Below, in pieces: positions 1-19,991 of a stretch of DNA of 53,407 nt. The translations under genes were made by a program, and so were the position numbers. The stretch lies in IMG/VR virus record IMGVR_UViG_3300036859_000475, positions 1 to 53,407 of that record; one strand, written 5' to 3'. The stretch comes from a virus. Under the pieces are notes generated by a model. It made no database searches, was not told the origin of the DNA, and saw nothing but the letters and a program-made list of their open reading frames with translations. Numbering within the stretch: position 1 is the stretch's first letter; the number at the start of each line of letters is the position of its first letter.

Positions 1-186
1 GGATCGTGGCGTGGTGCACACGTTGCGGCGCCGACGTCTACGTGCACGAGATCCAGCCGGGCTCCGATGTTTGTCGAGGCACGATGTTCGTCCGGACCTA
101 CGGGATGCTGCGGGCACGCCCGTGCGGTCACGAATGCAGCCTCGGAGGGGAAGGGTTGCCACTGATTCGGTGGCAGGCCCTGCAGC
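1..186. repeat. Left copy of terminal overlap
   Basis: These 186 bases are repeated at the right end of the window with one difference (G at 59, A at 53280). An open reading frame passes cleanly through the junction. The simplest reading is a circular map (circular or circularly permuted genome) cut inside a gene. A true direct terminal repeat is possible but would split a gene. Confidence 0.9.
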
Positions 187-224
187 TGCCGAACCCGTTC
201 CTCGGCGGGACAGCCGCCGCGTGA
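1..224 (+). CDS. 3' part of Cys-rich protein spanning the map junction
   Basis: This is the continuation of the gene that starts at 53173. Joined across the circular junction it encodes 90 residues. The part seen here holds a CxxC pair followed by a CGHEC motif, which suggests a small zinc ribbon. Its TGA stop overlaps the GTG start of the large terminase gene (GTGA at 221-224), so the two are probably translationally coupled. Function unknown; the position just before terL fits a small packaging-operon protein. Confidence 0.75.
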   Translation, partial: IVAWCTRCGADVYVHEIQPGSDVCRGTMFVRTYGMLRARPCGHECSLGGEGLPLIRWQALQLPNPFLGGTAAA

Positions 225-1747
225 CACAGGAGTCTGTCGAGCTCGAGCTGGCGCTCGCGGTCGACACGCTCGAGTACGAGGTCTTCAAGCGCTACTACCG
301 CCTCGACCCAGCTGGGTTTGTGGAGGACTGCATCGACTGGGACCGGGCGCATGCGCGTCCGACACGCTATCAGCTCGAGTCGCTGGACGACATGGTCCGC
401 TACGGCCGCGAATCGGTGCGGGCCCTGCACGGCGCGGGGAAGACCGCACCAGCGTCGTGGGCGACGCTGTGGTTCGCGATCACTCGCGACGGACAGGACT
501 GGAAGGCACCGACGACGGCCTCGGTGTGGCGCCAGCTACAGCGTTTCTTGTGGCCCGAGGTCCACAAGTGGCACCGTCTGTTGCGATGGGACCGCATCGG
601 ACGCGCGCCGTTCGCCGAGAAGCGCGAGCTGCTCGATCTCGCCATCCAGACCGAGACGGGGGCGGCCTTCGCCGTGGCCTCCAAGCAGCCGGCGGACCTG
701 GAGGGCGCGCACGCCGACCACATCCTGTACGTGGTGGACGAGGGTAAGAGCGTCCCCGACAGCGTGTATGACGCCATCGAGGGCGCCTTCGCCGGGGCGG
801 GCAAGGACACGGGCATGGAGGCCTTTGCGCTGAACTACTCGACTCCGGGCGCGCCGGCGGGTCGCTTCTACGCCATTCAGAGTCGGCGGCCGGGCTTCGA
901 ACACTGGCACGTCCGGCACGTCACGCTGGAGGAGGCCGTGGACGCCGGCCGGGTGTCGGCGCAGTGGGCCGAGACGATGCGCCGACAGTGGGGGCAGGAC
1001 TCGCCGATGTACCAGCAGCGCGTGCTGGGCAACTTCTCCTCCGACGAGGACTCCGTCATCGCGCTGGACTGGGTGGAGGCCGCGAACGAGCGGTGGCTCG
1101 AGCTCGCTGGTGCGCGTGGGCGCGTGCAGGTGGTGGGGCAGGCCACGGCGCTCGGCGTCGACGTCGGGGGCGGGTCGGCAGAGACGGTGTTTGCCCGGCG
1201 GTACGGCGCGGTCCTGAGCGAGATCGAGACCGACACGCGGCGCGACGAGATGCAGATCGCCGGGCGGATCGTAGCGCTGACCGATGCCGAGGGTGGCGTC
1301 CCGGTCGTGGACGTGATCGGCATAGGCTCGGGCGTGGTAGCGCGGCTGCGCGAGCTCAAGCGCTCGGTGATGGGGTTTAACGCCGGCGAGTCGGCGGGCA
1401 ACCTCACGGACCGCTCGGGCAAGCTGCGCTTCGCCAACAGGCGGTCGGCGGCGTGGTGGGGCATGCGCGAGCGCCTTCACCCGGAGCTCGGGGACAGGAT
1501 CGCGCTGCCGCCCGACGACATGCTCACTGCCGACCTCGTCACCCCACGCTGGTCGGAGACGTCGTCCGGGCGCATCCTGATCGAGCCCAAGGACGAGATC
1601 GCGGGACGGCTCGGGGGCCGGTCCACCGACCGTGGTGACGCGGTCGTGCAGGCCTTTGCTCTTGAGCTGCTAGAACACCTGGACCGACCCCGCGCCCGGC
1701 GGGCGCGGGTGGGACTTGGTGTGCGTTCGGTCGCACCGCAGAAATGA
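221..1747 (+). CDS. terL: Terminase large subunit (ATPase and nuclease)
   Basis: The DNA-packaging motor that pumps DNA into the prohead and cuts it. The 508-residue protein has a Walker A-like HGAGKT at 70-75, a Walker B strand ending in VVDEG near 170-175, and a coupling motif NYSTPG near 205-210. The C-terminal RNase H-like nuclease shows acidic residues at D314 (GVDVGGG), D364 (VVDVIG) and D473 (DRGDAV). I chose GTG 221 because it gives the usual GTGA overlap and begins just before recognisable sequence; the frame stays open back to 11 only by chance. It sits beside the portal gene, as in HK97-type phages. Confidence 0.95.
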   Translation: MTQESVELELALAVDTLEYEVFKRYYRLDPAGFVEDCIDWDRAHARPTRYQLESLDDMVRYGRESVRALHGAGKTAPASWATLWFAITRDGQDWKAPTTASVWRQLQRFLWPEVHKWHRLLRWDRIGRAPFAEKRELLDLAIQTETGAAFAVASKQPADLEGAHADHILYVVDEGKSVPDSVYDAIEGAFAGAGKDTGMEAFALNYSTPGAPAGRFYAIQSRRPGFEHWHVRHVTLEEAVDAGRVSAQWAETMRRQWGQDSPMYQQRVLGNFSSDEDSVIALDWVEAANERWLELAGARGRVQVVGQATALGVDVGGGSAETVFARRYGAVLSEIETDTRRDEMQIAGRIVALTDAEGGVPVVDVIGIGSGVVARLRELKRSVMGFNAGESAGNLTDRSGKLRFANRRSAAWWGMRERLHPELGDRIALPPDDMLTADLVTPRWSETSSGRILIEPKDEIAGRLGGRSTDRGDAVVQAFALELLEHLDRPRARRARVGLGVRSVAPQK

Positions 1748-1974
1748 TTAGCCTCCGGTACGCTCGCGCGTATTATCGACTGCGACCGATGAGTGACCCG
1801 CCGATGTCGCGCTGGCGCGTGCTGACGCCGTTGGAGTGGCTGCGCGTCGCGCTGTGCGGTTTGTTCTGGCTGGGGCTGATCGGCGCCGGCGTACTCGTGC
1901 ATCCGGCCCTGGGGGCGCTGGGATTGTCGGTCGGGGCACTGGCGGTCCTGTTGCTCACGATGGGGACGCCGTGA
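1744..1974 (+). CDS. Small membrane protein
   Basis: A 76-residue protein with a hydrophobic C-terminal half: about two membrane segments, from roughly residue 35 to the end. ATG 1744 overlaps the terminase stop as ATGA. A second in-frame ATG at 1789 would trim a basic N-terminus but has no clear ribosome-binding site. Function unknown. Confidence 0.65.
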   Translation: MISLRYARAYYRLRPMSDPPMSRWRVLTPLEWLRVALCGLFWLGLIGAGVLVHPALGALGLSVGALAVLLLTMGTP

Positions 1975-2222
1975 GCCAGCAGCCCAAGAGCCGCGACATG
2001 TTCCCCGTGCTGCATACGCGCGGGGGCGAGATTCGCTATGTGCGTCAGCGATTCCTGAGCTACAGCCTTGATGATCGGCGGCGGTGGGTCGCCTGGCTGA
2101 ACACGGCCTATCACGGCGAGAACGAGATCAGGTCACGTCCGGTTGCCCGGGCCCGGTGGCGGTGGCTGCTTCATCTCCGTACGCATCGGTTGTGCGCCAC
2201 GCTGCGCAGGGATTGGTCGTGA
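1971..2222 (+). CDS. Hypothetical basic protein
   Basis: An 83-residue basic, Arg/Trp-rich protein starting at GTG 1971, overlapped by the preceding stop (GTGA) and overlapping the next start the same way. No family recognised. Its place in the terminase-portal operon suggests late expression; the C-terminus is dense in Arg and may bind nucleic acid. Confidence 0.6.
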   Translation: MSQQPKSRDMFPVLHTRGGEIRYVRQRFLSYSLDDRRRWVAWLNTAYHGENEIRSRPVARARWRWLLHLRTHRLCATLRRDWS

Positions 2223-2401
2223 ACGCCGCCGAACCTCTGAGCACGGACAAGCTCAAATCCATGATCGAGGCGTGCTACGCAGCGTGCTTGCGTCGCGAGA
2301 TCGTGGCCATTCCCGCCCACGCCTATCCTCCGAAGTGGCTCGAACGGGCCCACGATCCAGAAGCTGGATCAGTTCGGCCGCTTGACTGGTTGGCCGAGTG
2401 A
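2219..2401 (+). CDS. Hypothetical small protein
   Basis: A 60-residue protein between terminase and portal, with GTGA overlaps at both ends (2219 and 2398). It has a mostly helical-looking N-terminus and no recognisable domain. The tight coupling on both sides is the main evidence that it is real. Confidence 0.6.
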   Translation: MNAAEPLSTDKLKSMIEACYAACLRREIVAIPAHAYPPKWLERAHDPEAGSVRPLDWLAE

Positions 2402-4620
2402 ATCTGTTCCCGTCGCTTTCGCTCAAGGTGGCTCCGCAGGCCAAGGACTTCCGGTCCATCGTGGCGCCCACGCAGAGAGGTCGGCCCTACCGAGACTCGT
2501 GGGACGTGGAGAAGGCCGTGCGCGAGGGGATGCAGCGCATGACCTGGGTCTTCCGGGCCGTGCACGTGCGGGCCACGAAGTCGGCCGGACTGCCGATCCT
2601 GGTGCGACGCGGCTCCCCACATAGCGAGGACGTCGACGAGGCCCACGCGCTGCTGCCGTTGCTCAACGCCTACCCCTCGCCCGAGGAGTCTGCCTACGTC
2701 TTCCGCTATCGCCTCTCGGCCGTCGTGGACCTGTCGCGCATGGGCGCTTTCGCGGAGGTGGAGCGCAACGAGCTCGACGACCCGATAGGGCTGCGCCTTC
2801 TTCCGCCCGGGTACACGAGCCCGATCCCCGGCACGCGCGACAACTTCCTGGACGGCTTCCGGGTCCACATCCCCGGCCTCGAGCCCTACACGCTCAAGCC
2901 GGAACAGGTGGTGTGGGTCAAGCACCCGCACCCGACCAACCCGTACGTCGGCATGACGCCGCTGGAGGCGGCGGGCATCACCATCGACACCGAATGGATG
3001 GCCAAGCTCTACCAGCGCAACTTCCTGGCCAACGACGGCCGGATGGGCGGAATCCTGCTCTTGGCCGGCGAGGTGTCTTACGACGATATCGAGGAGTTGC
3101 AGGCGCGCATCGACGCGCGCTCCGGGCCGTCGTCGGCCGGCCGCACGACGGTCATGGAGGCGACGCTGGAGGACGTGGCCGGTCAGGGCACGGGACAGGT
3201 GGAGGGCGTCAAGTTCATCGACACGTCGGTCTCACCGCGCGAGGCCGCCTACATGGAGATGCGCAAGTTCAACAAGGAGGAGATCTTCGCCGCGTTCGGC
3301 GTGTCCGACTCCATCGGGACGGGCTCGTCGGTGGACCGGACGTTCTCGAACGCGGACGCCGACTATCTCCAATTTTGGCGAGACACGATGGTGGACCACT
3401 GCACGCTGCTGGATCGGCCCTTCGACCTGGTGGACTCCGACCCCGCGACCTTCGTGGCCCACGACTTCTCGGAGGTGGCCGTGCTGGCGCGCGATCGCAT
3501 GGAGCGTGAGAAGCATCTGCTGGAACAGCTCAAGGCCGGGGCCATTACTTGGAACGAGTACCGGGCAGAGGTCGGCCGCGATCCGTACGCCGAAGGAGGA
3601 GACTCGGTCCTAGAGCCGCTGTCCCTGGTGCCCGTGGCCGGAACGGGCGGGGGATCGCGGACGAAAGCGCGCGTGCTGGCGCGAACGAAGGAGGCCCCGG
3701 GCGGTGCCAGCCTGCCCGCCGTCGTCGCCTGGGGCCCCTTCGTCGTGGACGCCAAGGCGCTGGCGGCACGACGGCGGGAGCGCGAGAAGCGAATCCGATC
3801 CTGGGAGCGGCAAGCCGTGGGCGTCCTGCGCTCGCTGTTCGAGCGGCAACAGAGGGCGACGCTGGCCAAGCTGCGCGGTGCCAAGACGCGCCAGGGAACC
3901 CGGCATTGGATCGTGCCATCACCCGAGCTCGCCGGACCCAACCCGAAGCTCACGGTGGCCGTCGGCAACGGCACGAAGATCATCGGAGCCCAGGACGTGT
4001 TCGACCTCGAGCGCTGGGACGAGGAGATCGCCAAGGACTTCGGGGCGCTGCTGCGCGAGGTGGCCGTCAGCTTCGGCGAGGACGCCTTCGACGCGCTGTC
4101 GGAGGCCAAGGGGCTACGGGGCTGGGAGACCAAGCAGGGGGAGACCTTCGACCCCGACGCGCCTCGCCTGCTGCGCTTCATCCTGGCACGGACGAACCTC
4201 ATCAAGGGCGCCAACCAGACGACCTTCGAGGCGATCGCCGCCACGCTGGCCGAGGGGGACTCCCTCGGTGAGACCATCGATGACCTGGCCACGCGCATCT
4301 TGGCCGTGTTCTCCGAGGCCCGCGGCTATCGTGCCGAGCGCATTGCGCGCACCGAGATCATATCGGCGGCAAATCTCGGCTCGCGTGAGGCCGCCATACA
4401 ATCCGAGGTCGTCGAGACGCACACTTGGTTGGCGACTCCAGACCAGAGGACGCGGGAGGCGCACGCCGACGCGGACGGCCAGACGGTGGGACTCGACGAG
4501 CCCTACGTGGTGGACGGCGCCGAGCTGTTGTTCCCGGGCGATCCAGATGGTCCGCCCGAGCTGACGATCAACTGTCGCTGCACAGAGATCTACGGTGTGG
4601 AAGGAGGTCCGGTCCTCTGA
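2398..4620 (+). CDS. Portal protein fused to MuF/SPP1 gp7-like minor head protein
   Basis: A 740-residue fusion. Residues 1 to about 400 match an HK97-type portal, the dodecameric channel for DNA at one capsid vertex: note the LxPxQVVWVKHPHPTNPYVG region and the MRKFNKEEIFAAFGV segment typical of the family. After a linker, residues of about 540-740 carry a MuF-like domain with RIARTEI near 648, HADADGQTV and the terminal NCRC. In most phages these are two neighbouring genes. The GTG start overlaps the upstream stop (GTGA). The next start overlaps this stop by one base (TGATG). Confidence 0.92.
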   Translation: MNLFPSLSLKVAPQAKDFRSIVAPTQRGRPYRDSWDVEKAVREGMQRMTWVFRAVHVRATKSAGLPILVRRGSPHSEDVDEAHALLPLLNAYPSPEESAYVFRYRLSAVVDLSRMGAFAEVERNELDDPIGLRLLPPGYTSPIPGTRDNFLDGFRVHIPGLEPYTLKPEQVVWVKHPHPTNPYVGMTPLEAAGITIDTEWMAKLYQRNFLANDGRMGGILLLAGEVSYDDIEELQARIDARSGPSSAGRTTVMEATLEDVAGQGTGQVEGVKFIDTSVSPREAAYMEMRKFNKEEIFAAFGVSDSIGTGSSVDRTFSNADADYLQFWRDTMVDHCTLLDRPFDLVDSDPATFVAHDFSEVAVLARDRMEREKHLLEQLKAGAITWNEYRAEVGRDPYAEGGDSVLEPLSLVPVAGTGGGSRTKARVLARTKEAPGGASLPAVVAWGPFVVDAKALAARRREREKRIRSWERQAVGVLRSLFERQQRATLAKLRGAKTRQGTRHWIVPSPELAGPNPKLTVAVGNGTKIIGAQDVFDLERWDEEIAKDFGALLREVAVSFGEDAFDALSEAKGLRGWETKQGETFDPDAPRLLRFILARTNLIKGANQTTFEAIAATLAEGDSLGETIDDLATRILAVFSEARGYRAERIARTEIISAANLGSREAAIQSEVVETHTWLATPDQRTREAHADADGQTVGLDEPYVVDGAELLFPGDPDGPPELTINCRCTEIYGVEGGPVL

Positions 4621-6446
4621 TGTCCTGGCGCGTGGAGAAGGGCGGCGGAACGTGCTCGGCAGATGAGTGGGCCGTCCTTAAGCAGGACGACGAATCGACG
4701 GCCGGCTGCCATTCGACGCGCCGCAAGGCCGAAGCTCAGATGCGGGCGTTGTACGCCTCCGAGAAGCAGTCCATGCGCGAGCTCGTGGCGGCCTGGCTAT
4801 GTCTGGACGGCGAGGCGCGCGCTGAGATCGTGGCAGAGCTCGGGATCGACCCGCCCGGAGGGCCGGGCAACTGGGACGAGGCGTGCATGAAGGCGGTTCG
4901 GGAACAGGGCAAGACGGAAGCGTTGCGCGAAGCGCTGCACTCGCGCACGATGGGAGGCGACATGGTCAAGCAGACGGAGACCGACTACACAGCAGACCCG
5001 CGCTTCGAGCACAAGACGGTGCGGGCGGCCGGCGTGAAGGTGCTGGACGGCGAGGCCGGCATCTTGGAGGCCTTCGTCGCCGGGATCGGCAACGTCGACG
5101 CTGGCGGGGACGTTATCGAGGCGACGTTCTTCCAGTCCTCCCTGGACAAGCACCTGCGCAAGATGCCCAAGGGCGTGGCGGGACACGACTGGTTGCAGCC
5201 CGTGGCCAAGACCCTGGAGACGCGCACGGTCAAGGCGGGCTCGCCCGAGCTTCCCGCGCAGATCAAGGCGGCGGGCGCGGGGGGCCAGTACGTCAAGGCG
5301 CAATTTAACCTCGACACGCAGCGTGGGCGCGAGACGTTTAGCGACGTGAAGTTCTTCGGGGAGGAGCAGGAGTTCTCGATCGGTTACATCGCTGAGGTGG
5401 CGCCCAAGGACGACGACGGCGTCCGGCATTTGCGCGAGGGCGCGTGGTACGAGTGGTCGCCCGTCCTGTTCGGCATGAACCCGGTCACGGCCACCGTCGG
5501 GGTCAAGGGGCTCGCTGCCGTCATGGCCGAGATCACCGAGGCGGTGGGAACTGAAGGCCCGGTGGACGTCGAGCGCATGGAGGCCGTCCTGCGCGACATG
5601 GGCCCGGACAAGGTGCGGCGGATCGCAGAATCAAAGATCGTGCAGGAGTTCCTGTGCGGCTGCGCCCTGGAGGATAAGGCCGTGTCGGAGAAGCCGTGGG
5701 ACGGCGCAGCCTCCCGCTTCACCGACGAGCAGTACAAGCGGGCATGCGCCGGCTGTCGGGGCGAGGACGAGGAGCACCCGAAATCGGACTGCTATCTTCC
5801 CCACCACGAGCCTGCCGGGGCCGTGAGCCGGGCCGGGGTTCACGCAGCCGCCGCTCGCTTCAACCAGACGCAGGACGTGTCCGACGCGGCCAAGGGTCAC
5901 CTAGCTGCGCACTACCGCAACGATCTGGACGAGGACGTGCCGGTGTCCCTGGGTGGCGAGGAGAAGGCCGGGACCAAGGAAGCCGTGGCCGGGTCGGTGG
6001 AGGAGCGCCAGGAGGCCATTTCCGACGCCGTCCGTGCCTGGGTGGCGGCGACGTATCCCCCCACGCCGGGCGAGCCCGACTACGGCCACTACGGCTGGAT
6101 CGTGGCCACCTTCGCCGACCACGTGATCGTGTGCGTGTACGCGGAGGACGGGGAGCGGCGCTTCCTTGACTTCCCCTACTCGATCGACGCCGTGGGCGAG
6201 GCGACGCTGGGCGATCCCACGGAGGTGGATCTCACGACGGTCGTGTCCCCGAAGACGCTGGAGGCCGCGCTGGCCAAGGCCGGAGCCCGTCACTCGCGCA
6301 CGGACCAGGAGAACATCCAGGCCGCGCACGACGCGATCGTGAAGGCCGGGGCCTACTGCTGGCCCAAGCCGGACGAAGGCAAGATGCCAGCGTGGTCGAT
6401 GACCGACGTGGCTGCGCTGGAGCTGCTGCAGGCCGAGCTGTCTTGA
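4620..6446 (+). CDS. Prohead protease with N- and C-terminal extensions
   Basis: Cleaves scaffold and capsid protein during head maturation. The 608-residue protein has a caudovirus prohead serine-protease core at about 130-300, with the likely catalytic His in GHDW (H189) and Ser in FSIGY (S253). The first 110 residues form a separate Cys/Trp domain often seen in front of such proteases. The C-terminal 300 residues include a FTDEQYKRAC...CYLPHHEP segment common in phage head proteins and probably act as scaffold, since no separate scaffold gene follows. ATG 4620 overlaps the portal stop. Confidence 0.88.
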   Translation: MSWRVEKGGGTCSADEWAVLKQDDESTAGCHSTRRKAEAQMRALYASEKQSMRELVAAWLCLDGEARAEIVAELGIDPPGGPGNWDEACMKAVREQGKTEALREALHSRTMGGDMVKQTETDYTADPRFEHKTVRAAGVKVLDGEAGILEAFVAGIGNVDAGGDVIEATFFQSSLDKHLRKMPKGVAGHDWLQPVAKTLETRTVKAGSPELPAQIKAAGAGGQYVKAQFNLDTQRGRETFSDVKFFGEEQEFSIGYIAEVAPKDDDGVRHLREGAWYEWSPVLFGMNPVTATVGVKGLAAVMAEITEAVGTEGPVDVERMEAVLRDMGPDKVRRIAESKIVQEFLCGCALEDKAVSEKPWDGAASRFTDEQYKRACAGCRGEDEEHPKSDCYLPHHEPAGAVSRAGVHAAAARFNQTQDVSDAAKGHLAAHYRNDLDEDVPVSLGGEEKAGTKEAVAGSVEERQEAISDAVRAWVAATYPPTPGEPDYGHYGWIVATFADHVIVCVYAEDGERRFLDFPYSIDAVGEATLGDPTEVDLTTVVSPKTLEAALAKAGARHSRTDQENIQAAHDAIVKAGAYCWPKPDEGKMPAWSMTDVAALELLQAELS

Positions 6447-6703
6447 CCGTCCCCGTCCCCCAGCCAGTGCCGTCCACTGGCGCGTCCCGTCCCAGCTTGC
6501 GGGGCGGCGACGGCGACGTCGACGACGTGCGCAAGGCCCTGATAGCCTTCCGCGCGGCCTGCATCCTGGTGGCCGAGCGCTTCGATGCCCTCGAGCAGGC
6601 GCAGGCCGGATTGGACGCCGCGCAGCGCAACTACGCGCAGGCGCTGTCTGAGAAGGGTCGGGCGCAGGAGGCGCTCGATCGCGCGGCGGGGGAGTTGCCG
6701 TGA
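6443..6703 (+). CDS. Small coiled-coil protein
   Basis: An 86-residue protein whose C-terminal two thirds form an Ala/Glu/Gln-rich heptad-like helix. The start is TTG 6443, chosen because it overlaps the protease stop (TTGA). Between protease and capsid genes it could help scaffolding, but this is inferred from position only. Confidence 0.6.
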   Translation: MTVPVPQPVPSTGASRPSLRGGDGDVDDVRKALIAFRAACILVAERFDALEQAQAGLDAAQRNYAQALSEKGRAQEALDRAAGELP

Positions 6704-7128
6704 GCATGCGCGACGTTCACGCCGGGATGTTCGCCGAGATGAACGCCCTCGGCCTAGACGTACTGGCCCGGTGCCCGGTGCACGGCTACGTCCCGGCGGC
6801 CGAATGCTCCGACATCGACGACCCCTTGTCCGGGGCCGTCGTGAAGCACACGGGCTGCGCCGAGGCCGTCGAGGTCGTGTACCGCCGCCCGGCCGAGGCT
6901 GCGGCTGACGAGCCCGTCGTGGTTGAGCGCGCCATCCCCGACTGCATGGTATGCATGCGCCCATGTCTTGTCCCGGGCGGTACGCGGGAGCTGTCCTTTC
7001 GTTTCGAGCGGGAGCCTCTGCCGCGCTGCGTCTGGTGCCTGCCCGCCTGGGCTCCAGATGCCTGGCGTTCGGTTGGCGGTCCATTGGTCGAAGTGGACGG
7101 TCAACCGATCCAACCGTTGACGCCCTGA
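6700..7128 (+). CDS. Hypothetical Cys-rich protein
   Basis: 142 residues starting at GTG 6700 (GTGA overlap). It has Cys pairs near the N-terminus (CPVHGY) and later CMVCMRPC and CVWC, consistent with zinc binding. No family recognised. The last codons contain the -35 box of the capsid promoter. Confidence 0.65.
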   Translation: MSMRDVHAGMFAEMNALGLDVLARCPVHGYVPAAECSDIDDPLSGAVVKHTGCAEAVEVVYRRPAEAAADEPVVVERAIPDCMVCMRPCLVPGGTRELSFRFEREPLPRCVWCLPAWAPDAWRSVGGPLVEVDGQPIQPLTP

Positions 7129-9924: not shown

Positions 9925-10662
9925 GTGATCGTGGTCGGTGCCACGATGCTCATGGAGCGAGACGCTCCCGAACACATGGCGTGGCTGTCCCACGCCAAGG
10001 ACATGATGGCGGGGGCCGACCTCGCATGGTTCCTCGCCATCCAGTACGACCCCGGCGACGACCACAACTATTGGGATGCCAGAGCTGTGGCAGAGCGCAT
10101 GGAGGAGGACGTCGGCGTCCCGCTCGACTTCCAGCGGTTCGCCATTGAGGGACATCGCTGGACGACGCGTGAACGGCTCATCGGTATTACAATGGGACGC
10201 AACCTTGTTCGAGAGCACGCGCTGCGTGACACCGACGCTACCCACGTCCTGTTTCTGGACACCGACATCGAGCCCGACCCGGAATGCATACCCAAGCTGC
10301 TGGAGGTCGATCATCCGGTGGCGGGTGGAGAGATCCCGAGCTATTGCTTGTCTGGGTTGACCGTGTTCTGCTCAGGGGGACCGTCGCATCTACATTCCGC
10401 GGACGTCGACGGTGCCAAGGATGACTATTGCAAGCACTTCAGCTTTCCGACGGAGGAGCACTGGGATACTGCGGGGTTTCTGCTTGTGCGACGTGACGTA
10501 CTCTCTCAGGTCGCCTGGCGCTGGAATCCCGACGACGACATGACCGACGATCCGTGCTTCGCCCAGGACGTGGAGCGTGCGGGGTTCGGCAAGACGTGGG
10601 TGCGGAAGGACTGCATCGGTCAGCATCGTCCCCCGATCCTCGTGCCGGTCGAGGCCCGCTGA
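9925..10662 (+). CDS. Glycosyltransferase, GT-A fold
   Basis: 245 residues with a GT2-like layout: an N-terminal strand, a nucleotide-binding region and a DxD metal motif in LFLDTDIEPDP (D112-D114). HWDTAGFLLVRRDVL near 175-190 resembles the acceptor-site helix. Expected to use a nucleotide-sugar donor in the cytoplasm. The neighbours (methyltransferase upstream, second glycosyltransferase downstream, capsid-area location) suggest modification of head or tail proteins; the acceptor cannot be read from sequence. GTG 9925 was chosen for conservation of the first strand. Confidence 0.8.
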   Translation: MIVVGATMLMERDAPEHMAWLSHAKDMMAGADLAWFLAIQYDPGDDHNYWDARAVAERMEEDVGVPLDFQRFAIEGHRWTTRERLIGITMGRNLVREHALRDTDATHVLFLDTDIEPDPECIPKLLEVDHPVAGGEIPSYCLSGLTVFCSGGPSHLHSADVDGAKDDYCKHFSFPTEEHWDTAGFLLVRRDVLSQVAWRWNPDDDMTDDPCFAQDVERAGFGKTWVRKDCIGQHRPPILVPVEAR

Positions 10663-10829
10663 TGGACGTACTCGCCTGGGTGATCGTGTGGATCTTCTGG
10701 TCAGCACTTTGCTTAATAATTGTGATCGGAAGCATCAAGGACATCGGACTAGTCGGCGTCCTCTGCTTCCTCTGCGTTGTCAGCGCTACGGCATCTGTTG
10801 CATGGGCGCTTGTTCATCTGGCGAATTGA
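10662..10829 (+). CDS. Small two-helix membrane protein
   Basis: 55 residues, almost wholly hydrophobic, with two likely membrane segments. ATG 10662 overlaps the stop of the glycosyltransferase (TGATG). Between two glycosyltransferases it might anchor or assist them, but that is only positional. Confidence 0.6.
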   Translation: MDVLAWVIVWIFWSALCLIIVIGSIKDIGLVGVLCFLCVVSATASVAWALVHLAN

Positions 10830-10857
10830 TCTTCACCGTCTTGGCCATGCGCGTGCC

Positions 10858-12060
10858 ATGAAGGTCCTCTACGTGACGGCCGATCTCGGCGGCTGTCGTT
10901 GGTATCGCTGTCTGCTTCCCGCTTCTGAACTGGCCAAGGCGGGCCACGAGGTCCTCGTCGCTGGCCGCCTGATGACCGTGCAGGGCGGTGAGATCGCCGC
11001 GCCGGACCCGTACTGCCCGGACGTCGTGCAGCAGCGGGACTTCGACCTCGTCGTGCTGCAGCGCTGGATGCACCAGGAGGCGCCGCGCGTCATCGCCCGC
11101 GCGCGCTCCACCGGGCAGGCCGTGGTCAACGACGTTGACGACTGGTTCTTCGGCATCCCGACGGCCAACGCCGGCTTCGCCGGGACGCACCAGCGCACCG
11201 ACCCGACGCACAATGTCGGTCACTATCGCAAGGTGCTGGCGGCCTCCTCGGCTCTGACTGTTTCCACGCCCTACCTCGCCAAGCGCCTCGAATCTCTCGG
11301 TGTGCCGATCTACGTTCTGCGCAATCGCATCGACGTCGACCGCTACCCGCCGCGCGAAGCGTGGGACGGACCGCTGCGCGTGGGCTGGGTAGGCAACGTG
11401 AACTATCGCGCTCCCGGCGACCTTGCGCAGATCCGCGGCGTCATCGGGCCCTGGATGCGTGACCATCCCGAGGCGCGCTTCACGCACGTGGGCTCGGTGT
11501 CCTTCCTCAAGGACTTCTGCCATCACGACCTCGCGCGCTGGGAGCGTACGGCCCAGGTCTTCTGCGAGCACCTGGGTATAAATCGCGCTCGTTACGACGC
11601 GCGTCCCTTGTGCGCTATCGAAGAGCTGCCTGCGGCACTGAGTGAGATAGACGTGGCGCTCGCTCCGTTGGAGGATTGTCCCTTCAATCGGGCGAAGTCC
11701 TGGGTCAAGTGCGCCGAGGCCGGGGCGTCCGGTATCCCCTGCGTGGCCTCCAATCTCCCGGAGTATCGACACTTCGGCCCGACGGCGCTTGCTTGTAGCG
11801 CAGCGGATTGGCGTGCTGCCCTCGATGTTCTTGTTGATCCGGCCACTCGTACCGCAGCCGGATTAGCGGCTCACCGGCGCTCGGAGGAGCTGTCGATCTC
11901 GACCGGCTGGCCCGCCTGGACGTCGGCTTACATGCAGATCGTCAGTGAGGCGAGGGCAGCCCCCGTACTCGCGCCGGCGACGTCCAACGGGGAGGTGGTT
12001 CGTTTCCCGAAGCGGCGGGCAAGGGTCCGCCGCGACAAAGTGATTGACCCGCGCCCCTGA
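10858..12060 (+). CDS. Glycosyltransferase, GT-B fold (GT4-like)
   Basis: 400 residues. It starts MKVLYVTADLGGCRWYR with the N-terminal nucleotide-fold strand, has VNDVDDWFF near 95-100, and a C-terminal donor domain with LRVGWVGN (about 178-185) and WVKCAEAGASGIPCVASNLPEY, the usual E-x7-E-like sugar-nucleotide site of GT4 enzymes. The C-terminus is basic. Start ATG 10858 is preferred over upstream in-frame codons because the fold begins there. The last codons contain the -35 box of the next promoter. Confidence 0.82.
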   Translation: MKVLYVTADLGGCRWYRCLLPASELAKAGHEVLVAGRLMTVQGGEIAAPDPYCPDVVQQRDFDLVVLQRWMHQEAPRVIARARSTGQAVVNDVDDWFFGIPTANAGFAGTHQRTDPTHNVGHYRKVLAASSALTVSTPYLAKRLESLGVPIYVLRNRIDVDRYPPREAWDGPLRVGWVGNVNYRAPGDLAQIRGVIGPWMRDHPEARFTHVGSVSFLKDFCHHDLARWERTAQVFCEHLGINRARYDARPLCAIEELPAALSEIDVALAPLEDCPFNRAKSWVKCAEAGASGIPCVASNLPEYRHFGPTALACSAADWRAALDVLVDPATRTAAGLAAHRRSEELSISTGWPAWTSAYMQIVSEARAAPVLAPATSNGEVVRFPKRRARVRRDKVIDPRP

Positions 12061-15653: not shown

Positions 15654-15959
15654 GTGCTGATTCTTTCGTCCCTTTCCTCGGAGTTCGTGAAGGTTCCCGT
15701 GCGGGCCGAGGAGAACGGTGCGGTCGTCAACCCGACGGCGGACGTAGTCGAGCTGGCGTTCGCCCCCGGGCTCACCGAGCCGGCCGGCACGGCGTGGAAC
15801 GTCGCCGAGTGGGAGACGGCCGGGGCAGACTACTTCGCCCGGATCGTCGTGGGTCCGCTGGGCGTGGTCCTGGCCGAGGGCGACTGGGGAGTGTGGGTCC
15901 GGGTGACCGACACGCCTGAGCGCCCCGTGCATCGGGCGGGGACTCTGACGATCACATGA
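15654..15959 (+). CDS. Small head-tail region protein
   Basis: 101 residues, beta-rich, from GTG 15654, with an ATGA overlap into the connector gene. Resembles in size and composition the small Ig-like or decoration-type proteins found before head-tail adaptors. No firm family. Confidence 0.6.
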   Translation: MLILSSLSSEFVKVPVRAEENGAVVNPTADVVELAFAPGLTEPAGTAWNVAEWETAGADYFARIVVGPLGVVLAEGDWGVWVRVTDTPERPVHRAGTLTIT

Positions 15960-16555
15960 GCCCGATCACGCCCGTGCCGATCCTGACCGTCCCCGAGCTC
16001 GAGCGCTACATGAGGGCGTGCTTCTCGGAGGAGGACAACGTAGAGGCGGCGGTCGTAATCGCCGCCGTGCAGTCCGAGCTGGAGGCCAAGCTCGGGCGGC
16101 CTGTCATGGTACGCAGCTTCGTGGACGTCATCGATCTAGGCCGGCCCGCGTGGAGCGAGTTCGTTTTCCTACGTCCGAACCTGTACCTGCCCAACACGCC
16201 GGTCAAATCCGGCACGCTCGTCGTCGAGGCGGACGGCGTCACGCAGGATCTCTCGGTTGAATGGGTGCGCACCTGGGGTATTCGCGACTATCGCGGGGCT
16301 ATCGGGACGGACGGCACCGTGACCGCCACCTACGACGCGGGATTCGACGGCCGAGCGACGGCCAACGCTGCGCTCCTACTAGCCGTCAAGCGCGCCGCGC
16401 AGCGGGAGATGAGCTGGCGTGAAGATCAGACACAGGGCACGAAGCGAACCTCAGACGAGGGCTACTCCGTGGAGTCCGTGCAGCCCGAGGGCTTCTTCAC
16501 CGCCGCCGAGCTCAACGGGCTCTCCCGTTACCGCCGCCGGCGGGTGAGCGCGTGA
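15956..16555 (+). CDS. Head-tail adaptor (gp6-like connector)
   Basis: 199 residues. A helical N-terminus (LTVPELERYMRACFSEED...AVIAAVQSELEAKLG) and a middle beta insert, then a long C-terminal helix, match the gp6/gp15 head-tail connector type that docks under the portal. Followed by head-closure, gp10-like and tail-terminator genes in canonical order. Confidence 0.75.
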   Translation: MSPITPVPILTVPELERYMRACFSEEDNVEAAVVIAAVQSELEAKLGRPVMVRSFVDVIDLGRPAWSEFVFLRPNLYLPNTPVKSGTLVVEADGVTQDLSVEWVRTWGIRDYRGAIGTDGTVTATYDAGFDGRATANAALLLAVKRAAQREMSWREDQTQGTKRTSDEGYSVESVQPEGFFTAAELNGLSRYRRRRVSA

Positions 16556-16899
16556 GGCTGGACCGCTTCGTGCTCGTGATCGAACGCGACGGCGAATCGC
16601 AGTCCAGCGACGCCGAGGGCGTCCCCGTCATCGAGCCCATGTCGAGCACGCGCGTGCGCGGCTCGCTGTCCATGCTCTCGGCGCGCGAGGCCTTCCGCGC
16701 GCAGCACTTCGGCGAGCACATCGAGGCGGCCGCCGGGGTGCCCAACGGGACGGCCGTGGACCACCGCGACCGCGTCGTGCTGGACGAGGCGCTGAATCCC
16801 TGCGCGCCATCACAGCTCGTCGGTTCATGGACGGTGGAGGCTGTGCGGCACACCCGGCCGCGACTGCGCTTGCTCCTGCGCCGGAGCGCGCACCCCTGA
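16552..16899 (+). CDS. Head-closure / stopper-like protein
   Basis: 115 residues from GTG 16552 (GTGA overlap). A small beta-barrel-looking protein in the slot where head-completion (stopper) proteins are coded. Assignment rests mainly on gene order. Confidence 0.6.
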   Translation: MRLDRFVLVIERDGESQSSDAEGVPVIEPMSSTRVRGSLSMLSAREAFRAQHFGEHIEAAAGVPNGTAVDHRDRVVLDEALNPCAPSQLVGSWTVEAVRHTRPRLRLLLRRSAHP

Positions 16900-18365
16900 T
16901 GCCCGACGACGTCTTCACGCGGGCAGGCCACAACATCGGCGTCGTGCTGCGCGCGGGCGTGGAGAAACCCGAGCCGCTCTTGAGCAAAATTGGCATCGAG
17001 CTGGTGAACCGCATCCGCGTCATCCTGAGCCAGCCGGGCTCTGGGCGGACCTACGCGCGCAGGGGAGTCGTGCACGCGGCCTCGGCCCCGGGCGAGCCAC
17101 CGGCCACCGACACAGGAAAGTACAAGACGTCCTGGGACTGGCGCATCGACGGATCGGTCCTGAGCGTCGGCACGCCGGATGTGCGCGGTTGTCTGCTCGG
17201 AAGCCATCATCATCGCGTGACGACGACGCGCGGGAGCGTGCCGATCGGTCAGATCGCCGCCGGGGACCGCGTTCTTACCCAGACAGGAGAATGGCGCACC
17301 GTAGTCGGAACCAGTCGCTACAAGGCCAGTGAGAAGCCGAGCATGGTTACGCTGCGCGTGCAGGAAAGCGAGAGAGTTCAGCATCGACTTGAACTCACCC
17401 ATGATCATCGGGTGCTCGTTGGTCGTGATGACCATAATGCTTGGATACCGGCTGGTCAGCTTCGCGTTGGAGACAATGCATATATTCGAGTGAGGCGGCC
17501 GACCAATCAGGTTCACTGGTCATGCGTCAATTGCGGAGGGCCTCGCAGGTATCATCAGGGACGCGCCCAGCGGTTTTGCTCAACGTCTTGCCGAACGACG
17601 TTCTATTGCAGAACTGGAACCAACCCTTCCATCGGGACTCGACGTACTTCGGCCGCTCGTCTCAAAATGAGGTTGCGCGCGTTGGCCAAACTCAAGGCCA
17701 GGCCTGAGCTGCATCCGTCGCGACTCGTAGCAGCCAGGGGCTACCAGACGAGCTACGAGTCCCAGGTAGAGAAATGGCTGGACGCACGGGGCGTGAATTA
17801 TGAAAAACAGGTGCCCATCGGCTCCTGGATCGTGGACTTTCTTCTCGTGGACCGATTGGAGATCATCGAGGCTGACGGAGCCTACTGGCATCAGGATCAA
17901 GCGCGCGATCTGGTTCGTGATGCTGGCTTGCTGGCGGCTCTTCCGGGGGCGCGCATTACGCATTTGCACTTTCACGATCCCCGGTTCACGCCAAATCTCG
18001 ATCCCGAACCTATGCCTGGAGTAACCTACGTCATCTGCAATCCCGGCCCGAGTTCATATGTTGACGGAACAGAATTTCGTCCAGCCTCGGTTGTGGATGT
18101 GGAAGCCTGGACGTATGAACCTAGTTCGCATCCGCGGGCAAGTGACAACGCTATGTTGTACGACATCTCGGTCGAAGGTGTTCACTCTTTTTTGGCCAAT
18201 GGCGTTCTGATCAGCAACAGCTGGCTTGAGTTTGGAACTTCGCGCATGGCACCGCGTCCCCACCTGCGCCCGGTGGTGGAGGGCGCCCGCGAGAAGATCA
18301 CCGAGCTGTTTGCCAAGGGCATTGCCGAGATACAGGAGCGAACGATCAGGACCCTGCGCGCATGA
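16899..18365 (+). CDS. HK97 gp10-like connector protein interrupted by an intein
   Basis: 488 residues as translated. Residues 1-97 and 441-488 together form a 145-residue HK97 gp10-like head-tail joining protein: the joined sequence reads VGTPDVRG then SWLEFGTSRMAPRPHLRP, the family's hallmark EFGT...PRP region. Between them lies a 343-residue intein (98-440) that should excise itself. ATG 16899 overlaps the previous stop (TGATG). The mature protein would sit at the head-tail interface. Confidence 0.9.
   Translation: MPDDVFTRAGHNIGVVLRAGVEKPEPLLSKIGIELVNRIRVILSQPGSGRTYARRGVVHAASAPGEPPATDTGKYKTSWDWRIDGSVLSVGTPDVRGCLLGSHHHRVTTTRGSVPIGQIAAGDRVLTQTGEWRTVVGTSRYKASEKPSMVTLRVQESERVQHRLELTHDHRVLVGRDDHNAWIPAGQLRVGDNAYIRVRRPTNQVHWSCVNCGGPRRYHQGRAQRFCSTSCRTTFYCRTGTNPSIGTRRTSAARLKMRLRALAKLKARPELHPSRLVAARGYQTSYESQVEKWLDARGVNYEKQVPIGSWIVDFLLVDRLEIIEADGAYWHQDQARDLVRDAGLLAALPGARITHLHFHDPRFTPNLDPEPMPGVTYVICNPGPSSYVDGTEFRPASVVDVEAWTYEPSSHPRASDNAMLYDISVEGVHSFLANGVLISNSWLEFGTSRMAPRPHLRPVVEGAREKITELFAKGIAEIQERTIRTLRA
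17190..18218 (+). mobile_element. Intein with Vsr/DUF559-like endonuclease
   Basis: The intein begins at Cys98 (block A, CLLG...GDRVLT) and has block B with T167-H-D-H170. Block F/G is YDISVEGVHSFLANGVLISN ending at N440, followed by Ser441 as the +1 extein residue. The penultimate residue is Ser, not the usual His. Inside lie a Cys4 zinc module (C209, C212, C227, C231) and a PD-(D/E)xK domain of the Vsr/DUF559 kind (E287, D313, E324-A-D326-G, H331). Base composition is more AT-rich than the flanking extein. Confidence 0.92.
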
Positions 18366-18769
18366 GCGACCCGTCCATTGGTGGGGCCGTCATCGGGATT
18401 GTGAGGGCCTCGGCCCTGGTCGCCACGCGCGTGTGGCGCTCGGACAAGATGCCTGAGCGCCCGAAGACCTTCCCCTACGTGACGGTGCTGGACATGATCT
18501 CCGACGCTCCGGGCCTGTCCGGGGACTGCGAGACGATGGCGCGCTTTCGGCTGGTGCAGGTGGACGTGTGGCAGCGCACCAAGGATGAGGATTTCTTGCT
18601 GTGCGAACGCCTGGTCGATATGCTGGACGGCACGGCCGTCGTGGCGGCACAGCGTGCCTGGCGGGTGAAGGTCGTCGATGCTCAGCGCCTGGACGATCCC
18701 GACGAGCAGATCATCCACCACGCCCTCACCCTGCGCATCGCGCACCGACAGCCCGTGGTAGCGGCATGA
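18362..18769 (+). CDS. Tail terminator-like protein
   Basis: 135 residues with an ATGA overlap. Motifs such as FPYVTV, CETMARFRLVQVDVW and ALTLRIAHR fit the DUF3168/gp17 tail-completion family, which caps the tail tube at the head end. Correct position in the order connector, gp10, terminator, tail tube. Confidence 0.75.
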   Translation: MSDPSIGGAVIGIVRASALVATRVWRSDKMPERPKTFPYVTVLDMISDAPGLSGDCETMARFRLVQVDVWQRTKDEDFLLCERLVDMLDGTAVVAAQRAWRVKVVDAQRLDDPDEQIIHHALTLRIAHRQPVVAA

Positions 18770-19101
18770 ATGATCCGTTGCTGCTCGTGCTGCTCGTGCT
18801 GGGCTCCTACCGCGCCCAACGCCTTGTGACGGCGGACGACTGGCCGGGCGCGCTGTGGCTGCGCGATGCGCTGCAAGACCGTGCCATGGCGCAAGGCAAG
18901 CCACGTCGGGACGGAACGCCGGGAGGAACATGGGGGTATCTCTTGGCGTTCTTCACGTGCCATTGGTGTCTGGGGTCGCTGCTCGCCGTCGTAGTTACGC
19001 TGGCCGTCGATCGCTGGTGGCAGGGCTTAGGTTTCCCCGCGCTGTGGGCCAGTGCCGTCGCCGCCGGCGTGGGATTGCTCGGCGAGCTGATCGACGCATG
19101 A
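18766..19101 (+). CDS. DUF1360-like membrane protein
   Basis: 111 residues. An N-terminal hydrophobic segment with YRAQRLVTADD, then FFTCHWCLGS in front of two further membrane helices, is the pattern of DUF1360 proteins, common in actinobacteriophages. Role unknown. ATG 18766 overlaps the upstream stop (ATGA). Confidence 0.75.
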   Translation: MNDPLLLVLLVLGSYRAQRLVTADDWPGALWLRDALQDRAMAQGKPRRDGTPGGTWGYLLAFFTCHWCLGSLLAVVVTLAVDRWWQGLGFPALWASAVAAGVGLLGELIDA

Positions 19102-19286
19102 GACTGCTGCGCCTCAGACGCCGCCAGCGCCCCGTACAGGCCCCTGGGAGCTCCGGAACATGCGCGCGCGGCCACGACCTCACCAAGCCGGAAAACGTGC
19201 ACAGGGGCCGTGACGGGTGCCTCCATTGCCGCGCGTGTTGGGCTGAGGTCGGGTTCCGCAATTCGACTCCGTTGACGCCCGGCTGA
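19098..19286 (+). CDS. Small zinc-ribbon protein
   Basis: 62 residues, with C-x2-GHDL...C-x2-C (CARGHDLTKPENV, CLHCRAC), a zinc-ribbon type often coded near phage HNH genes but here without a catalytic core. ATGA overlap upstream. Its last codons hold the -35 box of the tail-tube promoter. Confidence 0.65.
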   Translation: MRLLRLRRRQRPVQAPGSSGTCARGHDLTKPENVHRGRDGCLHCRACWAEVGFRNSTPLTPG

Positions 19287-19300
19287 GGCGGTCGTAGTCT
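19272..19300 (+). promoter_or_regulatory. Promoter for major tail protein
   Basis: TTGACG at 19272-19277, 17-base spacer, TAGTCT at 19295-19300, matching the capsid promoter closely. Confidence 0.7.
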
Positions 19301-19421
19301 TCACTCGTCCGGAACGTGCAGATCCGGCGAGAGCAGGACCCCCGAGCAGGACGTTGGGTGCTGACCCGGCGAGAGCGACGGGCGCCAGTCCGATTCGTTC
19401 CCGCAACAGGGAGGTCAGCCA
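19301..19421 (+). other. Long 5' leader of major tail gene
   Basis: A 121-base untranslated stretch with two copies of CCGGCGAGAGC and two of GAGCAGGAC, ending in the Shine-Dalgarno CAGGGAGG. It may fold, but no known regulatory RNA was recognised. Confidence 0.4.
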
Positions 19422-19991
19422 GTGGCCGTCCAGCACGAAACGACCCTTTTTGACGTATGTGATTTCAAAGTGTTCGAAATGCTGAACGATGTGCCCGGCG
19501 CATCGGCTGGTCCGTCCTACGGCCCCGCCATCGACGTGCCGGGCGTGGCCGCGTTCTCCGGCTTCGACCCGAACATCGTCTCCGCCGAGCTCAAGGGCGA
19601 CTGCCGCGTCCTGGCGCGCCAGGGCCGCATCGACTCCATGCGTGCCTCTTTCACCTACGGCAAGCTCGCCCTGGACGTCCTTGACGCCATCTACACCGGC
19701 GAGATCTTCGACGCGGCGGGATACGCGGCCTTCCGCATGCTGGCCGGCGCGGAAACGAAGTACTTCAAGGCCGAGGTGGTCATCACGGGGGTGGACGTGG
19801 GGCTTACCGACGCCCGGGTGATCCTGTACAAGGCGCAGATCACCGGGGGGACGTTCTTCGACCAGACCACGGATAATTTCGGCCAGCCGAAGTTCGACGT
19901 CGACGGCATCGGGATCGACTCCGGCGACGAGGGTGCCGACTATCCGGCTGCGGCCAAAACGCTCATGGCCGACGTCGTTATCAACGGGTAG
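19422..19991 (+). CDS. Major tail (tube) protein
   Basis: 189 residues from GTG 19422 with a strong Shine-Dalgarno and dedicated promoter. Beta-rich, with EVVITGVDVGLTDARVILYKAQITGG resembling the phage tail-tube fold. It is followed by frameshifted chaperones and the tape measure, the standard order. Confidence 0.85.
   Translation: MAVQHETTLFDVCDFKVFEMLNDVPGASAGPSYGPAIDVPGVAAFSGFDPNIVSAELKGDCRVLARQGRIDSMRASFTYGKLALDVLDAIYTGEIFDAAGYAAFRMLAGAETKYFKAEVVITGVDVGLTDARVILYKAQITGGTFFDQTTDNFGQPKFDVDGIGIDSGDEGADYPAAAKTLMADVVING

Follow-up and report, generated by a model that had tools for sequence, protein, structure and literature searches.

The gp10-like gene and its intein

The stretch of DNA analysed here, called the window below, is the single IMG/VR virus record IMGVR_UViG_3300036859_000475, positions 1 to 53,407 (53,407 nucleotides). 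On its plus strand, an open reading frame (ORF) from the ATG at nt 16899 to the stop at nt 18365 encodes a 488-residue precursor of a gp10-like neck protein (tail completion/Neck1), which is interrupted by an intein. The N-extein has 97 residues (nt 16899..17189), the intein 343 residues (nt 17190..18218), and the C-extein 48 residues followed by the stop codon (nt 18219..18365). The intein occupies residues 98–440 of the precursor, begins with Cys1 and ends with Ser-Asn343, and the next residue is the Ser+1 that opens the sequence SWLEFGT. The stop of the upstream gene overlaps the ATG at 16899, and the gp10-like gene in turn overlaps with its stop the ATG of the following gene (18362); the overlap with both neighbours makes this start codon credible. 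An earlier, sequence-only reading of this DNA had placed a 343-residue intein at 17190–18218, and these limits hold to the base, with the Cys codon at 17190 and the Asn codon ending at 18218. It had also put the insertion exactly before the motif EFGT, which has to be corrected: the junction lies between VRG and SWLEFGT, and the residues SWL stand between it and EFGT.

Joining the two exteins (97 + 48) gives a protein of 145 residues. The PHROG_5 profile, 'tail completion or Neck1', matches the joined protein across the junction (residues 58–137, E 3e-11), and the match to TIGR01725 (HK97-gp10) improves from E 1.4e-3 for the unspliced protein to 7e-5 with the intein deleted. Removal of the intein thus restores one continuous protein, as the earlier claim of a split 145-residue gp10-like protein had it. 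The two halves also align as one continuous gp10-like protein with 28 uninterrupted IMG/VR homologues, where the junction falls between Y(A/G) and x-x-L-E-F-G-T. Ser at +1 occurs naturally in some of these homologues; L023 and L043 read YG-SWLEFGT, much like the RG and SWLEFGT that flank the intein in the window. Among 1,681 deletions around both boundaries, scored against a profile of the uninterrupted homologues, the exact one ranks top with 106.1 bits, versus 90.4 bits unspliced. The scan is a weak test, for the exact boundaries beat some in-register shifts by 1–2 bits only, and the precision of the boundaries therefore rests mainly on the splice residues and the family. A sequence search found no solved structure similar to the extein.

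The splicing domain

The N-terminal splicing (Hint) half, nt 17190..17498, carries Cys1 and the block-B residues T70xxH73 (nt 17397–17408) and is matched by Hint_2. The C-terminal half, nt 18126..18218, runs to His332...Ser342-Asn343, with H332, S333 and N343 invariant; TIGR01443 (intein_Cterm) matches it at precursor residues 421–441 and passes its cut-off. The Pfam model Intein_splicing matches with E 9e-5, under its curated cut-off, and DUF559 also matches the intein. Cys1, T70xxH73, H332 and Asn343 are invariant in all 17 non-identical gp10 inteins collected here, the window's included, and Ser+1 is present in every full-length member of the clade. The residues of a class-1 intein, C1, T70xxH73, N343 and S+1, are thus all in place.

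A predicted structure model has a mean predicted local distance difference test (pLDDT) score of 74.6, with 81–90 over residues 1–100 and high values across the splicing halves. Compared with known Hint structures by VIA, it gives Z 19 for the Mtu RecA intein, 19.8 for hedgehog and 18 for gp41-1, and Foldseek agrees. The intein thus has the HINT fold.

The nuclease and its Cys4 module

Between the Hint halves lie, in order, a Cys4 module, a basic linker and a DUF559 domain. The Cys4 module, C112-x2-C115-x14-C130-x3-C134 (nt 17523..17591), presumably binds zinc and contacts DNA. The four Cys are invariant in 17/17 gp10 inteins and in 21/21 of their cousins in MuF genes. A side observation concerns L138, whose gp10 intein (nt 3001–4119) carries two tandem Cys4 modules (CQNC...CSMEC and CRYC...CSREC); the other members have one.

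The EDxHD/Vsr-like (DUF559) nuclease domain, nt 17748..18125, is recognised from profile matches, a tally of its residues and the selection on its relatives. Its key residues are E190 (nt 17757), D216 (17835), E227 (17868), D229 (17874), H234 (17889), D240 (17907) and D244 (17919), and the EDxHD pattern is present as E190, D216, H234 and D240/D244. A profile of 17 nuclease domains finds I-Bth0305I (3r3p) first with E 9e-7, then the DUF559-like 3hrl with E 1.4e-4, and Vsr (1cw0) third and weakly, with E 0.04. The D and H of EDxHD align with a D and an H of Vsr 1cw0. At the two aligned positions 3r3p has Ala, so it is presumably an inactivated construct. Without exception, the 38 gp10 and MuF inteins that were examined share D216, E227, D229, H234, R243 and the four Cys.

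The sequence-only reading had described a PD-(D/E)xK nuclease with its own Cys4 module. The Vsr/DUF559 type and the Cys4 module are supported by the profiles, the fold comparison and the conserved family; EDxHD/Vsr-like is the better name than plain PD-(D/E)xK, and the type has precedent.

An intein family at one site

IMG/VR was scanned with the window intein as query and then with alignments. The scan motifs were chosen inside the intein, also for one alignment that ended with eight extein residues, and the scans were therefore not biased towards a host gene. Besides near-duplicates and two partial copies, they gave 16 more non-identical inteins of full length that belong to this clade. With the window, 17 of 17 non-identical full-length members sit in a gp10-like gene at the identical codon junction, followed by S-x-(V/L)-E-x-G-(T/H) or a close variant; one partial copy has Cys at +1. 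PHROG_5 was confirmed on nine exteins besides the window's. The host gene, which the sequence-only reading had called unusual, is so among the described phage inteins checked, and within its own clade it is the rule. The mean identity between members is 45% for the inteins and 26% for the exteins; shuffled exteins give 20%.

In a tree of 39 inteins built by a quick method, the gp10 members form one clade, with a support of 95 in the Shimodaira–Hasegawa-like approximate likelihood ratio test (SH-aLRT), and the MuF members another (SH-aLRT 94). L110 has a long branch in this tree and is labelled terminase-hosted from its flanks. The MuF clade is the sister clade; it has the same nuclease and sits in MuF-type minor head genes. 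PF04233 matches two of these hosts, L068 with a score above its cut-off and L003 with one below, and the other MuF labels come from a shared flanking motif.

Comparison with known inteins finds a distant similarity to gp41-1 (E 4e-6). The 50,697 GenBank phage records, queried with the window intein and the L136 intein, contain no full-length match, and plasmids queried with the L136 intein gave none either.

Mobility, selection and composition

The gp10 gene of L190 is uninterrupted, and its protein reads ...AGGRGAMQSWLVEHGHGG... around the site. L190 has ...AGGRGAMQ joined directly to SWLVEHGHG, and L146 has the intein exactly between the same Q and S. The DNA of the two is 88% identical over 1.6 kb upstream and 87% identical over 164 bases downstream of the site. 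L190 thus carries the empty allele of the site occupied in L146. A second uninterrupted gp10 group, L192–L196, is related to the L146 group and has Ala at +1; this residue would block splicing of an incoming intein, and the allele is possibly a resistant one.

The inteins of L136 and L137 are 56% identical, yet no ORF flanking the one matches an ORF flanking the other. L152 has flanking genes in common with the L146 group (42% over 412 residues), and its intein is among the most distant. In the group of L146, L148, L150 and L151, where synonymous divergence (dS) is measurable, the ratio of non-synonymous to synonymous substitution rates (dN/dS) of the nuclease is 0.05–0.09, and the intein evolves slower than its host protein; elsewhere dS is saturated. 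The pattern fits repeated homing among phages with the nuclease maintained. Recent homing in the phage of the window is not proved by it; the nearest relative of the window intein, L154, is 45% identical to that intein.

The intein has a G+C content of 0.571, close to the minimum for any kilobase of the window, whose mean is 0.668. In 18 of 18 loci the flanks are richer in G+C than the intein, and the dip scales with the G+C of the host. The dip is thus a family trait, not an arrival date, and it is rejected as evidence of recent acquisition.

Interpretation of the locus

The locus very probably holds a full-length class-1 mobile intein that splices and homes in a phage gp10-like neck gene. 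The lineage is most likely an active one, specialised on virion neck genes. In the proposed course the 488-residue precursor would be made first, and Cys1, the TxxH block, the F-block His, Asn343 and Ser+1 would then release the 343-residue intein and join the exteins into the 145-residue neck protein. Either the precursor or the intein after its release would act as a homing endonuclease; the Cys4 module and the linker would bind the uninterrupted gp10 junction of a co-infecting phage, and the EDxHD/Vsr-type domain would cut there. Recombinational repair would copy the intein into the cut gp10 gene. The lineage has kept to a single site, although the tailed phages through which it spread differ widely.

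Several points weigh against this reading. The penultimate residue is Ser342 in place of the usual His, as it is Ser in 16/17 of the clade; a penultimate His is common in class-1 inteins and is not required. The sister MuF clade is reversed, with Glu at 332 and His at 342. The absence of the penultimate His is a clade trait, perhaps compensated by the F-block His332, and the swap may bear on Asn cyclisation. The E of EDxHD is missing in two relatives, being Q in L145 and K in L149. An empty site was searched for in a near relative of the window phage and none was found, and the proof of an empty site comes from L146 and L190. The low G+C is no proof of recent arrival. Finally, the sequences show the anatomy of the intein, the continuity of the exteins, the fixed site across the family, the empty alleles and the purifying selection on the nuclease of relatives, and from these we infer splicing, cleavage, zinc binding and homing.

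The intein of the window phage might still splice while its endonuclease is dead or dying, so that it is inherited and no longer homes. Loss of the nuclease is a common end state of the homing cycle (PMC3229294), the lost glutamate of L145 and L149 suggests that some copies may be inactive nucleases, and the selection evidence comes from relatives and not from the window copy. That copy, however, keeps E190, D216, E227, D229, H234, D240 and D244 with all four Cys, and purifying selection on the nuclease is strong in a group of relatives; a dead nuclease is unlikely here. It is far less probable that the element does not splice at all, being an in-frame insertion or a C-terminally cleaving Hint domain of the bacterial intein-like (BIL-like) kind, which would leave the neck protein unspliced or cut in two. 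Such a domain could account for the penultimate Ser and for the matches of Hint_2 and PT-HINT models besides the intein model, whose Pfam score misses its cut-off. Against it, the catalytic residues are kept in 17/17 members, +1 is Ser in all full-length ones, TIGR01443 scores above its cut-off, the gp10 halves stay in one frame at one junction in every member, and the same junction is visible in uninterrupted relatives. An RNA intron in place of an intein has practically no chance, as the 1029 bases are all in frame and free of stops and encode a HINT fold with the splice residues; this candidate was rejected, and no Rfam intron family is found in 15900–19500.

Splicing could also be a switch: as long as the intein is in place, the neck protein would be unable to connect head and tail, and the splicing rate would time virion completion. 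The rate would perhaps be sensed through Cys1 or the metal site of the Cys4 module. Such a role would account for the presence of two sister clades of inteins in assembly genes, one in gp10 of the neck and the other in MuF of the minor head, but we consider it quite improbable.

Neighbouring genes

The gp10-like gene lies between genes for a head-tail adaptor and a tail terminator, as expected for Neck1. The head-tail adaptor gene is upstream (nt 15956..16555, plus strand; PHROG_442, E 2e-13), and the gene for tail completion gp17/tail terminator is downstream (nt 18362..18769, plus strand; PF11367, E 3e-7, and PHROG_78). The major tail protein gene follows at nt 19422..19991 on the same strand (PHROG_4971, E 8e-8), and a tape-measure-like gene is also among the neighbours.

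Elsewhere in the window, nt 2398–4617 of the plus strand encode a portal protein fused to a MuF domain (PF04860 and PF04233). Its ...NCRC end is intact, hence the MuF site that the sister clade uses elsewhere is empty here. Glycosyltransferase-like genes at nt 9925–12060 of the plus strand lie between the major capsid and connector genes. They resemble the insertions reported in cluster J mycobacteriophages (PMC3706429).

Antisense nuclease genes inside MuF inteins

The MuF-gene inteins of L118, L189, L201 and L202 contain a DUF559/EDxHD nuclease gene on the opposite strand, and the intein frame is open throughout; L189, L201 and L202 are Vibrio phages. The antisense gene lies at nt 3644–4384 (plus strand) inside the sense ORF 3206–5299 (minus strand) in L189, and at nt 3791–4534 (plus) inside the sense ORF 3569–6799 (minus) in L118. 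Between L189 and L201 the antisense frame is the better conserved of the two, with 51% identity, and the sense frame over the same DNA has 40%. L006 is a fifth and unrelated case. Its MuF-like gene has two inteins, the first with an antisense and the second with a sense nuclease; the antisense ORF of 280 residues, nt 319–1161 (minus) inside the sense ORF 1–3543 (plus), encodes several Cys4 modules and an EDxHD-like domain. To our knowledge, no case of an antisense endonuclease gene within an intein frame has been described. The nearest described thing known to us is an out-of-frame HNH insertion, which is not an intein (PMC11855218).

Comparison with known systems

Inteins and the EDxHD nuclease family are known; the insertion site, the host gene and the site-faithful family were not found in the literature searched. 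Searches of that literature, which was covered in part, gave no description of inteins in neck or connector genes, and a prior description is possible. Published accounts place phage inteins mainly in genes for terminase and DNA metabolism; one mycobacteriophage study reports them in terminases and non-structural genes (PMC3706429). The present lineage keeps to one junction in a small neck protein that evolves fast, in phages that otherwise have little in common, and its sister lineage keeps to MuF head proteins. This offers a natural setting in which to test how a homing nuclease can keep track of one conserved motif when the DNA has diverged strongly, and it supplies new EDxHD nucleases whose natural targets are defined. 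Annotators should also be warned that a gp10 gene of about 480 residues may contain an interruption and not be long in itself.

The mycobacteriophage TerL inteins, for example Omega gp11, are likewise full-length, with about 340 residues in a phage virion-assembly gene; they differ in a predicted HNH endonuclease and in the terminase host (PMC3706429). The gp41-1 and Mtu RecA inteins share the HINT fold (Z 18–19), gp41-1 being distant in sequence, but their hosts are gp41 and RecA, and the solved forms are splicing domains without an EDxHD nuclease.

EDxHD/Vsr is a recognised homing-endonuclease family (PMC3943268; PMC12350094, citing Dassa et al. 2009). I-Bth0305I is intron-encoded (PMC3943268). 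By profile it is the same kind of nuclease, and the catalytic pattern is intact in the window; its structure, PDB 3r3p, was deposited as 'mobile intron protein'. The 2009 intein cases of Dassa et al. are reportedly split inteins, with the nuclease gene standing free between the two halves. The window differs from both: its intein is a single unsplit one that contains the nuclease as an in-frame fusion. The MuF-gene inteins of the sister clade (e.g. L003, L068 and L130) are like the window intein in architecture, with a Cys4 module and an EDxHD nuclease, whereas they have a PF04233 host, Cys+1, the usual His-Asn end and Glu for His in block F.
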